NCBI GenBank assembly: GCA_950295325.1
Contig: OX485804.1
Coordinates: 61,906,533-61,970,532 of the forward strand
Source of the DNA: Polytrichum commune
Lineage: Eukaryota; Streptophyta; Polytrichopsida; Polytrichales; Polytrichaceae
Direction of reading: 5' to 3'
DNA: 64,000 nucleotides
A program made the position numbers and the translations under genes. The notes below the pieces were generated by a model. The model ran no database searches and was not told where the DNA came from. It worked only from the letters and a program-made list of their open reading frames with translations. This document shows positions 27,188 through 32,961 of the stretch, in pieces (position 1 is the first letter of the stretch; every line of letters starts with the position of its first letter).

Positions 27188-27486
27188 GTTGATACCAGTG
27201 TTGGTCTGTTATCTAAAATTGGACATACCAGTCGGTTCTAAGTAATAAAGATTCCTTAGAAACTAGGATTAGTTGGATCCATGGTATTACAAACAATGCA
27301 TTTTTGCAAATACAGTAATGATATGAATACTGTAATTTTGGGGAAATTCCAAAGAGCATAAGAAGCTCAATATTATAAGATATGATACCAGACATATATG
27401 AACACGGGTCGGATATGTTTTACCCCACTGAGAGTATTGATTTGGTGAGAGTATTGATTGGCAAACCACTTATGTGCACCATTACA

Positions 27487-27655
27487 AAACAATTATGTAA
27501 ACAATTACGAGTCTCTGTAAACAATTCGCTCTCTGTAAACACTTACAGTCTCTGTAAACAATTCGCTCTCTGTAAACACTTACAGTCTCTGTAAACAATT
27601 CGCTCTGTAAATAATTACGAGTCTCTGTAAACAATTCGCTCTCTGTAATTATTCA
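27487..27655. repeat. Subterminal tandem array in the hAT element
   Basis: About five units of roughly 36 bp are built on TCTCTGTAAACAATTCGCTC and TCTCTGTAAACACTTACAG. In hAT elements such as Ac, clustered subterminal motifs bind the BED domain, so these are candidate transposase-binding sites. The binding role is an inference. Confidence 0.75.
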
Positions 27656-27902
27656 GACAGACAATTGAGCTACAGATAGACAAAGCAACTACAAGCCACA
27701 GGCTTCACAAAGCCTTTTTCATAATACATTCACACATGTCACATAAACCCATCAAAGATATACAGCAGGAATTTCCTTTGCACAAACAACAACATCATTT
27801 TCATGTGCATCACAAAGCATCACAAAGCATCGTCATGCCCTTCGTAATCAAATTTAGTCCTAAATAATCAGCCTGCTATTCAATCTAATCAGCTTACAAT
27901 TC

Positions 27903-30900
27903 CTACTCCTCATCTTCAGCCTGCTCTTCAAAGTAACCAGCTTCCTCAATCTCATCTTCAGCTTCGTCAACTATTTCCATCTCTTTGGCAAAATAATCCT
28001 TGACATCTTTGACCACCTCAGTGACCTCACATTCATGTCTTGAGTCATCAGGCCAATTCTTGTTGATCATGATCAAGCTATCCAAATTATTTAAACCAAG
28101 GCGGCAACGACGCAGACTTGTAAGCACACCTGCAATGCTAAAAATCCGCTCCGTTTCAATTTGTGACCCTGGAATAGCCAAAATTTGACGTGCAAGAAAA
28201 GAAACTGAAGGGAAACGCGATGCATTGAGCTTCCACCACGTCAGAGGCTCCTCCGCTTCTAGATGCACTATAGTGAGACGCCGGAAAAGTGACAGCTCCG
28301 CAATGAGAATGCCCTCGCAAGCTTCTTCAGCAGACGCTGGAGCACCAAATAGAATATTTGACGGAGCATGATCAAGAGTTGTGGTTGGGGACCCGCCAGG
28401 GTTCAGGAACTTGTGCACCTTCACAAGGTAAGGAATCAAAATTTTCTTGTCATACTCCTCCACCACTTGCTTCGCTTTGGCAACTCCCACGTAGTCAATC
28501 ACGTACTCCAGCCCCTTAAATCGAGGGTCCAACATCAAGGACAACATATTGTGAGCTTGGTCTGCCACAAATTGTAGAGAAAATCGGAGAAACGGCTTCA
28601 TGACATCCACAGCTGTCCTCGCCATCCTCGCCTTCAGAATTTCAATCTCAGACTCGAAGTCACCCACCTGAAAAAATTGGACACCCTCAGTAAAGCTACG
28701 GAGGTTGAGGCAAATAAAATGCAAATAAAATACAAAGGCAGAGGTAGACCAAATTCATGTCCACAGGTAGACCAAATTCATGTATACAATATTAACACAA
28801 TCCTAGCTCCTGGTGATTGTTCCATTGTTCCTCAAAGTCCTTGACATGATAGAGACTGGAGTTGAAGGAACAATTGTAAGTTAAAAGATGAATAATGCCT
28901 CAGTACACTTGGTTTGTTAATGTGACATAGCAATCCACCTATATGAGAACTGTACCAGTATAGAACTCCACAGCCCCAAAGAATCCCATATTACTCGAGG
29001 GGACTCTGCACAATGGTGACATCTCAAACAGAGCCAAGAAGTTTACATTACTGACAATATCCAAGGATGCAAGTAATGCCGTCACAGTGAGCATGATTAG
29101 GAGCTGCATCTGCTGCCCTTTCGATATGAAAGAACTGCTTTTGTAATTAAATAAATAAATAAAATTCAACAATAACTGTGCTCAGCCGTGAAGAGTCCCA
29201 ATGTGGGAGTTCAACTGTGGCTAATCATTCACAGCCTCCAGAAAATTGTAGTACATGTACAATGATAGAAAACACAATCCGTTACGATTTGCAGAACAAG
29301 CTAAATGACTCCAGTCTTAGCTGAACAAAGGATCACAATTGTGAGCAAAGATGATATGTTCCCTTTCTTGATTGTGTCGATTTGCAGCCCCCGAGAGGAC
29401 ACTTATATCATGAATAGATGCAAGACAATGACAATTATGATTCCATACTATAATGCATTATGAGGAGATGATGGGGTCTAAGCATGAGACTGAAGGCATG
29501 AAGAAATTGATTTTTGTAGTTCTTTAGCTACGGCATCTTGTGGAAATTGGAATAATTTGAGAGTTACATTCTAAAGAGAACAACAGTAACTCTCACTCTG
29601 GTATGTTTTATGTGAATTCCTAAACATCTTATCTAATCTTGAGTTGGAAACTGGAGGTTGCATGCAACTCACAAGTTACCACCGAACAAGGACACAAATG
29701 GGTCAAGAATACTTCGCAAGGGGTTTACAAAGATCACAGAGGCAATTCATGTTCTCTTCCATCTAAATTGACATAACCTACTTGAGATGTGCTTTCTAAT
29801 TACGGTAGACTCGAAGTCACCCACCTGAAGAGGGTGAAGTACGCGTGACCTCTGTTCATGCACTCCCTGCAACTCGATAGACATGCGGAAGGCAGCAGCT
29901 AGTGCATCTGAAAGCAACCAATATCCACGAGTTTGATTAAGCACACATTGTTGCACAACTGGATTGAGGGTTTGAGTGACGGTTCTTGCTGTAGCCCACG
30001 TCATCCCGCTCGGTACGCGAGCTTGCAACTTCAAAGACTGCCTTCTGTAGCAAATGCTGATGGCGTCCGCATACTCTTGGGTCTCCTGGAACAACACAAC
30101 TTTAGAGGCAAATCTAGTCTTCACAGGTGTTTTCAACTTCCTAGTAGGCAACCCAACATCGATGCAAGCTTTATCCCACTCCTGACGGCCTTTACCCGAC
30201 TTCTTCGTCCAAGTGATGCAAGCCTGCAATGATTTCTGGGCATTCTTCAACGACACTTCCTTCATCCCCTTGCACATTTGCTCGTCATTGGTAGCATACT
30301 GGCAGACCTTGGACATAATGTGACCAAAGCAGGCAGATGAAAAAGGTTTAGCTAACCCAAGAATGTCACAAGAAACTGTAAGTTGTAGAGCACGCTCAAG
30401 CGTTGCCAAATTGGCACCCTCGTCTTTCACACAAGCAACAATCTTGTCTGTCAGTTTAAATTTGTCCAACAGAGGCTTTACAATTTCGGCCAAAGCAGCA
30501 CCACTAGTATCCTGTGCCTCAAAGAGTCCGACAGTCACATGGCGAGGCACCCAACAGTCATCGATGAAGTTCACGACTAAGGCGAATGTATCCCAACCAG
30601 TTCTAGACATCCACAAATCGAAGGTGATGCTAGCAGTCTGGCAACTACCAATCAGAGGCAATACAAAGCGATCCATCGTCTTCTCTAGCATGGCAGGTAT
30701 ATGCTCGCGGACAAGTTGCTTGCGACTTGGACAGATGACCTTTGGGTCACGGCGCATCACAAGTCGCCGCAACCAAGCCGATTCTACTATCGACAACGAT
30801 TCATACCCCTTGGCAATAAACAACACAAGGTCTTCAATGAATCGTTGTTGTTGCACATCATTCTTTGCATAGGGTTTAGTGTTACCGAAATATGCTGTGA

Positions 30901-31426
30901 TGGATGACGGTGGTGCGCCTTTTCGCTTTTTAGTTTTTTGCCGAGCAGTCTCTCCTTCGTCGGCCTTCGATTCTCGCACATAGCGAGCGAACTCCTCCGC
31001 ATGCTCGTTCTCAACGTGGGTCTTCATGCTCGTGATCCCATGAGCAGGGTTATATTGCAGAATCCCCTTTCTGTTGCGAGTGCCCCTACCAGAAGAGTTA
31101 CTGAATTCTGCTTCAGTTGGGTGACAAACCCAACACCTCAGCTTTTGTGTCTCTCTCACGTTAATGCTCATATCCTCTCCCTTCAGTCGGAAGAAAGCCC
31201 ACACGGCCGAGCTTCGGTGGTAAGGTGTCCAGAAGGATTGAGTGGCCTTCAAGGAAACATAACAAGCTCGCCAAGCAGCGTCGTCTTCAGCCGCCTGCCC
31301 TTCGCCAAGTGGCCGCTGTGCATCCTCACGGCCTTCGGTAATGCGTGCCGAATCTTGTCTTTCCAAGTCGATGCTCTCGACGTTTCCTGCATCGTCATCG
31401 AAACTTGGTTGAACACTGCTCGACAT
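27903..31426 (-). CDS. hAT transposase, two exons, 788 aa
   Basis: Cuts and pastes the surrounding element. Exon 1 is 31426-29825, exon 2 is 28667-27903, joined in phase 0. Residue landmarks: an acidic N-terminus; BED-type zinc finger with C98, C101, H137 and H142 preceded by the aromatic WAFF; a basic KKRK stretch near 165; first catalytic Asp in TFDLWMSR (about 270) and second in VKDEGANL (about 335); LMLDPRFKGL near 580; the hAT C-terminal dimerisation region with PLTWWKLNASRFPSVSFLAR (from 675) and ETERIFSIAG (705); an acidic tail. The start at 31426 (MSSSVQPS) has a good context, ACCATGTC; an in-frame ATG ten codons earlier is possible. Length and domain order are normal for hAT. No stop or frameshift is seen in the exons. 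The large frames on the opposite strand are shadows. Confidence 0.9.
28668..29824 (-). other. Transposase intron bounded by a 23-bp direct repeat
   Basis: The 1157-bp intron begins CAG|GTGGGTGAC and the next exon begins after TTTTTTCAG with the same GTGGGTGACTTCGAGTCT. The exact repeat covers 28650-28672 and 29807-29829. Removing the intron restores LQ|VGDFES and one continuous frame. Unspliced, the frame runs 25 further codons (VGDFESTVIRKH...) and stops at 29747. Inside is a short direct duplication of GGTAGACCAAATTCATGT near 28745-28785 and an unidentified minus-strand frame at 28939-29172. Confidence 0.8.
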
Positions 31427-32961
31427 GGTAAGTGAATACAAAAAAATGAACCCCAACCTCAGATTCCAAGCCGCAACCCCAGATTTCCAACCCCAACCTC
31501 AGATCTACAAGCCACAAACTGAAATGCTTCACAAAACACAAAACCTAGAATTTAACAAGAAGAAGGAGGCATACTCTTTGAAGTACAGATCTGCTCCCGC
31601 TTTCGGCATTACAACAAACACCCACTCCGCGTCTTGCATTTACAGGCACTCCGCTCAACATTGAAGAACACTCTCTTTGTATTAACAATCCACCAACAAT
31701 TTCTCATCACTCATAACCTACTATACCTGCTCTCAACAAATGCAGCCAACAACCGGTTTCAATAATCACAATGTCGAGGAGAAAACATCCCAATAGTGGT
31801 AGCTGCCGCAGTAACCCGTGTGCACATACACGGCACGGTATGAATAAGAACCGGGTTTCGAGTTTAGGGTTACTGACCAGGTCGGGTTTTGGATACCCTA
31901 TTGATACCCTCGGGACATACCCGCCGAGACCCCAGATAACAGACCAACACTGGTTGATACCTTAATTTGTTATGTTTGAACTTTTAATTACTAGTTTGTG
32001 TTGTTAGATGATCATGTCTTGGAATAATACCGATACAAACAATCATTCAATTTTATTGGAATAATCTTTGATCAATTCATGTTTATGACTTGTTATATTT
32101 TATTTTAACTTTATTTACAATGATTGAAGTTGTTGAATAATATCCTTATATTAGGGTACTGGATGATGTTATATTTTGTGTTAAAAGTTAGGTTTTTTGT
32201 GTTCATATTGTAAAAATAGTGGTAGAGGTTGTAAAATATGCCCATGTTAGGATAGTGCAAATATATAATTTGGAAACCAATAGATAATTGACACTAAAAA
32301 ATGTTTAAAATCAAAAGAGTTGTTTGTGCATAAGTGATATGAACGAGAAAGTTGAGAGACTAAGAGAGACCCGATATTGGATCAAAGTCAAGAAATGAAA
32401 AGAGATTCAATAATGGTTCAAAGCAAGGAAAGTAAGAGATATCCAATAATGATTCAAAGTGAAGAAACTAAGAGTGAGATCTAAAATTTGGGAGAGATCT
32501 GAGAGAAATGAAAAACTAAAAGAGAGAGAGAGAGAGAGAGTCAATAATGATTCAAAACTAAGAGATTATGAAAGATTCTTGAATGGTTCTTGAATGGTTC
32601 TAAGGTAATAAATTATGAGAGATCACTAAGATATTAAGTACAAATTAATGATCACAACCATTAAGAACATTAACCAAAAATTCTTGAAAGCATAATCCAA
32701 TAGTCACAAATAAGTCTCACACAAACCGAGAGTTACAAACACATATTCTACAAGCCAAGAGTCACAACCACCGAGAGTGTAAGGAGAATAAACAAAAGAC
32801 GAGAGTGCCACAAAGACCCTTTATGAAGTCCTTTGTGTGGGTGGATGGGACTAGAAGTGCTCATGGTTGCCCTTATTAATACTCGAGGAATGTTGGTTGT
32901 GGGTAAACATATACATACAAGGTCAACAACATGTTAGTTTGGATTTTAGTCATGAGAGCCC

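Follow-up and report, generated by a model that had tools for sequence, protein, structure and literature searches.

The window, that is, the whole stretch of 64,000 nucleotides that was analysed, corresponds to C2:61906533-61970532 of a 407.8-Mb assembly and includes a hAT element of 4,757 bp (27196-31952), hereafter termed Q. Two of the traits by which the hAT superfamily, whose elements move by cut and paste, is recognized, short terminal inverted repeats (TIRs) and an 8-bp target site duplication (TSD), are present in Q, and both are perfect, as the preliminary description of this locus had stated (Table 1). The coding sequence (CDS) lies on the minus strand, begins with the ATG at 31426 and runs through two exons, which together encode 788 aa without an internal stop. 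The exons have a GC content of 48.5%, and the intron that separates them of 38.9%. As the spliced frame is open over both exons, the lesion-free transposase described earlier is corroborated; the same holds, taking TSD, TIRs, intact spliced frame and the C-terminal Dimer_Tnp_hAT domain together, for the claim that the transposon is complete.

TABLE 1. Features of element Q, numbered by position in the window, and copies of its sister subfamily, located in the assembly.
Feature	Position	Strand	Remarks
Target site duplication, left	27188-27195	.	GTTGATAC, same letters as 31953-31960
Terminal inverted repeat, 19 bp, left	27196-27214	+	CAGTGTTGGTCTGTTATCT, 19/19 complementary to 31934-31952
Transposase exon 2, including stop	27903-28667	-	Motif-assigned catalytic E707; Dimer_Tnp_hAT
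23-bp duplicated coding sequence, copy 2	28650-28672	-	With acceptor AG|G
Intron gained by insertion, 1157 bp	28668-29824	-	CAG|GTGGGT ... TTTTTTCAG|GTG; absent from L012, L013
MAP70-derived piece, 53 bp	28670-28722	-	92%, antisense of MAP70 exon; supplies acceptor pyrimidine tract
Later replacement of intron interior, main piece	28837-29638	-	84% to C2:18996402-18997275
Later replacement of intron interior	29640-29734	-	Related to C1:22528456-22528561
MAP70-derived piece, 54 bp	29755-29808	-	94% to C3:13949023-13949717, antisense to gene
23-bp duplicated coding sequence, copy 1	29807-29829	-	With splice donor
Transposase exon 1	29825-31426	-	534 codons; motif-assigned catalytic D270, D335; CxxC...HxxxxH motif 98-142
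Terminal inverted repeat, 19 bp, right	31934-31952	-	CAGTGTTGGTCTGTTATCT, 19/19 complementary to 27196-27214
Target site duplication, right	31953-31960	.	GTTGATAC
Sister copy L023	C5:8695299-8701113		Intact 783-aa frame
Sister copy L030	C3:6343423-6349234		Intact 783-aa frame
Sister copy L024	C1:2758855-2764665		Stop at codon 62
Sister copy L022	C5:46671400-46677400		Start not found
Further two sister copies	C5:33130359-33136172 and C5:33183037-33188850		

Copies of the element in the genome

Both TIRs were found in all seven copies inspected, namely Q and L009-L014, with 0-3 mismatches per end, and the same copies carry the 8-bp duplication (perfect in five, with one mismatch in two). Perfect TIRs and duplications also flank the three copies of a third subfamily that were inspected (L025-L027). 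The first 17 bp of the terminus gave 133 genome matches at ≤1 mismatch, versus 1 for the reversed control. The element ends and their duplications are not a product of chance.

A genome search with the whole element yielded at least 67 matches, the best 40 of 62 first-look candidates having been scored; copy counts given here are lower bounds. Sixteen copies constitute the working set (Q, L009-L014 and L022-L030). The preliminary description had counted a lack of other copies among the findings that would refute it, and other copies exist. When the joined flanks of Q (508 bp) were compared with the genome, no paralogous empty site was detected, the matches being the flanks themselves and a weak partial one (72%).

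The second full-length copy, L009, is 98.8% identical to Q over 4,752 aligned bases. At a plant substitution rate of 7e-9 per site per year, this identity would represent roughly 0.9 million years. L009 carries a nonsense codon at 663, in exon 2, L010 a frameshift near codon 95, and L011 stop codons in frame. The 28 CDS differences between Q and L009 are polarised to Q in 10 cases (4 nonsynonymous, 6 synonymous) and to L009 in another 10 (6 nonsynonymous, 4 synonymous, both changes at the stop included), the remaining 8 being ambiguous. Four missense changes are private to Q: at S108F, V231I and P531H the other base is common to all six outgroups, and at E322K it is found in four of the six. 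It had been suggested that the element may be active or very recently so. Its recency agrees with the 98.8% copy; against activity stand the nonsense codon of L009, the broken frames of L010 and L011 and the private missense changes of Q, so that possible activity appears only partly supported.

A sister subfamily, of which six copies of ~5.8 kb were seen and four fetched (L022, L023, L024 and L030), all without the Q intron, looks like a better candidate for recent mobility; L022-L024, the three of six that were compared, are 99.1-99.2% identical over 5.67 kb, and two of the four fetched retain an intact frame. Q is an ordinary new hAT member, frame-intact, and not the best activity candidate in this genome.

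The transposase

Dimer_Tnp_hAT (PF05699) matches residues 666-738 (E 1.4e-14; 54 bits versus a cut-off of 21.4), in agreement with the dimerisation domain reported earlier, and the Hermes transposase matches residues 658-739 (best E 3.5e-11). Residues D270, D335 and E707, which we take to be the putative DDE catalytic triad of an RNase H fold, were assigned by motif and not by structure, and the protein may be catalytically functional. The Hermes alignment across D270 and D335 is non-significant; exon 1 alone gave matches at chance level only against the PDB, and its AlphaFold model (pLDDT 35.7) is too poor for a fold search. As to the BED finger of the preliminary description, the CxxC...HxxxxH motif is present, but exon 1 gave no Pfam zf-BED match even at E up to 10. 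The pattern occurs in 10 distinct copies (14 loci listed), and a pattern search did not find it in L012 or L025-L029. A BED zinc finger is common in the hAT superfamily without being required.

Q resembles hAT elements of the Hermes and Ac type in its 8-bp TSD, its short CAGTG-type TIR, its single transposase with C-terminal Dimer_Tnp_hAT and its match to Hermes. It differs from them in the missing Pfam zf-BED match and in possessing one intron of recent, traceable origin.

Structure and source of the intron

The origin of the 1,157-bp intron and its 23-bp direct repeat had gone unremarked in the preliminary description. The two repeat copies at the intron ends are identical (23/23) and are spaced by exactly one intron length; their score was reached by 0 of 2000 shuffles. 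The duplicated stretch contains CAG|GT, copy 1 giving the donor CAG|GTGGGT and copy 2 the T-rich acceptor TTCAG|G, and predicted splicing therefore leaves the reading frame exactly as it was before the insertion. The whole length of L012 aligns collinearly with the spliced coding sequence, and so does that of L013 except for a MITE. Each of these two fully intronless copies carries a single 23-bp stretch with 3 mismatches, and that of L014, likewise single, has 5. The intron occurs in just four of the 16 copies, Q, L009, L010 and L011, which occupy four different sites, each with its own TSD. In L010 and L011 most of repeat copy 1 is missing, owing to a 0.53-kb patch, and in L011 the donor is preceded by CAA rather than CAG.

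The source of the insert is found at C3:13949023-13949717, within a MAP70 gene (PF07058, E 8.2e-61), in antisense orientation. In L010 the match comprises two stretches, of 286 bp (97%) and 173 bp (92%), likewise antisense, and in L011 two at 97% and 91%; Q retains the two shorter pieces of Table 1. Part of the insert also matches C5:15751576-15751763 (91%) and C7:31078687-31078854 (73%), C3 thus being the best of these three related loci. In the acceptor tract, TTTCTTCAG or TTTTTTCAG, lysine codons of MAP70 are read on their reverse strand, and the duplicated target comes next. The junctions show apparent microhomology between host and target, TCTTC (5 bp) at one and CT (2 bp) at the other, as read by eye. 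The 286-bp antisense MAP70 piece of L010 (3214-3499) lies within the transposase intron, from where it could give rise to antisense or small RNA against MAP70.

Derived presence in one copy group, repeats at the ends and filler from an unrelated locus are three of the traits by which introns gained through double-strand break repair are recognized, and all three are found here; a fourth, removal by the spliceosome, is suggested by the selection pattern described below. We propose that a staggered double-strand break occurred within the transposase exon in an ancestor of the four present copies, that filling in of both break ends would have duplicated 23 bp of coding sequence, and that the gap would have been patched with ~0.6-0.7 kb copied antisense from the MAP70 gene on C3. 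Donor and acceptor would thereby have been made in one step, with a lysine-rich MAP70 exon, read on its reverse strand, contributing the pyrimidine tract, and splicing would restore the original frame exactly. The intron-bearing gene would have kept transposing, and further patches would later have changed its intron in at least two ways. Overall, we consider it probable that the intron of Q, a frame-intact hAT element, arose by break repair with a patch of host DNA and then multiplied.

Later rewriting, mosaicism and age

The middle part of the MAP70 piece has given way, in Q and L009, to ~1.03 kb related to C2:18996402-18997275 and C1:22528456-22528561. In L010 and L011, the 0.53-kb piece that interrupts repeat copy 1 is 89-90% like C6:43660669-43661201. 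As each of these three replacement pieces (C2, C1 and C6) matched one outside locus in the searches, copying of low-copy DNA is favoured over insertion of a repetitive transposon. In contrast, the insertion in transposase exon 1 of L013 (3169-3510) belongs to a high-copy MITE with 1585 first-look candidates; its ends are G/C runs and it is flanked by an 8-9 bp duplication, GACTAGAT, the next base differing. This insertion was considered as a further intron and rejected, being a high-copy MITE with such a duplication.

Trees were built from 14 of the 16 copies, L028 and L029 being left out for low coverage. In the tree of CDS 1051-2367, a split with UFBoot 100 sets the four intron-bearing copies apart from the remaining ten. 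In that of CDS 1-1050 they form no supported group: L010 and L011 pair at 97, and the next groupings reach 67 and 63. Q and L010 differ by ~9% in CDS 1-1050 and by ~2.3% downstream, with a sharp change at CDS ~1050, which marks a recombination or gene-conversion boundary in the transposase, the lineages being mosaics. Since the copies are ungrouped over CDS 1-1050 and divergence drops from ~9 to ~2.3%, the intron may have passed between lineages with the 3′ part by recombination. At the rate used above, 2.3% would place the split of the intron-bearing 3′ parts about 1.6 million years ago, as a minimum age of the gain; TE methylation could make this figure an overestimate. The non-coding ends of Q and L010 differ by 6% (5′) and 14% (3′), values perhaps due in part to the tandem repeats there.

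Is the intron spliced?

Between the pairs Q/L009 and L010/L011, fixed differences amount to 2N/4S (N, nonsynonymous; S, synonymous) in exon 2, to 1N/3S in CDS 1051-1602 and to 22N/55S in CDS 1-1050; this last segment has another genealogy, and its differences may predate the gain. For the 10 changes of exon 2 and CDS 1051-1602 pooled, P is 0.002 if 77% nonsynonymous changes are expected under neutrality and 0.011 if 70% are, both expectations being approximations. Exon 2 gives 6N/7S (P 0.015 to 0.06) once the count is extended to terminal changes, to the stop of L009 and to one ambiguous site. Q and L009 overall differ by 12N/14S without the stop codon (P 0.0006 to 0.009) and by 14N/14S with it (P 0.002 to 0.02). 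Single pairs in exon 2 give 12N/7S for Q and L010 and 14N/2S for L010 and L011, the latter as expected of copies that would be dead. Frameshifts are hidden in all these numbers, as projection onto the codons of Q ignores insertions and the dN/dS counts skip gapped or stop codons. The changes fixed after the gain suggest, short of proof, that both exons are translated.

These data bear on whether the insert is an intron at all. It might instead be a disabling insertion in a young dead copy, whose frame looks intact from the short time elapsed. The frame lesions of L009, L010 and L011 would fit this, as would the fact that unspliced translation would stop ~24 residues into the insert, losing the dimerisation domain; movement alone could be explained by transposase acting in trans from intact relatives such as L023 or L030. 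It is nevertheless unlikely in our view, taking into account that four copies share the insert at four sites with different target duplications, and that changes fixed after the gain lean synonymous on both sides of it.

Two further explanations concern the way in which the insert came to its place. The exon might have received a transposon or a retroposed transcript, whose insertion duplicated 23 bp of the target, and duplication of AGGT by a transposon is indeed a proposed route to introns (PMC3443670, consulted in part). We hold this to be quite improbable: the MAP70 piece has neither terminal repeats nor, at its junctions, poly(A)/poly(T) (by eye); outside the four copies the insert matches one C3 locus and partly the C5 and C7 loci; and the MITE of the L013 exon looks different in its duplication, ends and candidate number. 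The intron might also be ancestral, the other copies having since lost it via reverse transcription, a mode of loss which the same review, in the part used here, treats as widely accepted. Against this, the insert has a MAP70 source of 91-97% similarity and an undiverged 23-bp repeat, and is confined to Q, L009, L010 and L011 among the 16 copies; such a history is very hard to credit. Gain by break repair and patching stays the preferred reading.

Introns of related subfamilies

The three subfamilies have four introns in all, each at an AG|GT site of its own: at aa 534 in the Q group, at aa 149 and 374 in the sister subfamily, and at aa 618 in the third one. The sister introns, read in L023, L024 and L030, measure 1,038-1,039 bp (aa 149) and 1,013-1,015 bp (aa 374), and no source for either was found outside the six sister copies. 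In the third subfamily the break at aa 618 is present in all four copies (L025-L028), splice sites having been read in L027 only. L028 also has a 2.1-kb gap at aa 222 (508-2647 of its reverse complement), either an insertion or a further intron. L029 is contiguous through 149, 374 and 534, and its match ends before 618.

L014, the nearest relative of the sister subfamily in the tree, carries an insert of ~80 bp at aa 374 and is uninterrupted at 149, 534 and 618. GTATGC(C)AAT was noted by eye on either flank of this insert (reverse complement, ~1798-1880), which lacks an AG at the acceptor and is perhaps an early short form of the sister aa 374 intron.

The direct repeat at the aa 149 intron is weak (56 of 2000 shuffles were as good), and no repeat signal was obtained at aa 374 (562/2000) or aa 618 (1362/2000). 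For this reason an origin by duplication is claimed for the Q intron only, the single one of the four with both a strong duplication and an identified source. We raise, as a doubtful extension, that this hAT clade could be a hotspot of intron birth, in which transposition breaks patched with host DNA would repeatedly make introns that multiply, and in which antisense MAP70 could act on its source gene. If this were true, DNA transposons would manufacture and spread new introns in plants.

Relation to described routes of intron gain

The origin of spliceosomal introns has long been open, since erosion nearly always removes the traces of both source and mechanism. For the Q intron, a single genome preserves the source gene, the duplicated target, relatives that lack the insertion and several descendants whose later histories differ; as an example of a proposed mechanism of intron gain, it is unusually well resolved. 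Because the intron-bearing gene moves, it also allows a test of whether the splicing of so young an intron suffices for a working transposase.

Introns attributed to double-strand break repair, as reviewed in PMC3443670 (partial text), share with that of Q the direct repeats at the ends, the AG|GT sites made by duplication and the foreign filler. The Q intron stands apart in its identified source locus, its perfect repeat of 23 bp, its location in a transposase gene and the multiplication of the copies that bear it. The table of that review, which reaches to 2012, lists five unambiguous cases, and no plant is among them. Pack-TIR or Pack-TYPE capture (PMC8277862, in animals, and PMC8903248; excerpts of both) likewise combines a DNA transposon carrying a host gene fragment, breakpoint microhomology and multiplication by transposition. 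In Q, however, the captured piece is an intron in an otherwise complete transposase gene and not part of a non-autonomous shell.

Introners (PMC9860276, excerpts) are also new introns linked to DNA transposons, but in Q the transposon is the recipient and not the intron; for land plants, that paper reports having found no evidence of introners. A putative intron gain in a plant transposase gene has been described for CACTA elements (PMC4158355, in part), where, unlike here, gain was deduced from the intron position on a tree and, in the part used, no source or duplication is named. In the literature searched, we met with no plant hAT transposase intron whose origin had been followed back to a fragment of a host gene.

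Target sites and termini

The TSDs of ten copies (Q, L009-L014 and L025-L027) show a preference for GTTnnnAC-like palindromes, and position 7, in transposase sense, is A in all ten. An exception to this preference is the flank of L024, GTTAGCTC, seen on one side only. Termini of the form CAGTGTTGGTCTGGTAT are numerous genome-wide among the matches listed, some of them in facing pairs ~0.3 kb apart, such as C3:50506757-50507084 and C3:58864834-58865179. These pairs probably represent a non-autonomous MITE family served by the hAT of the window or by a related one.
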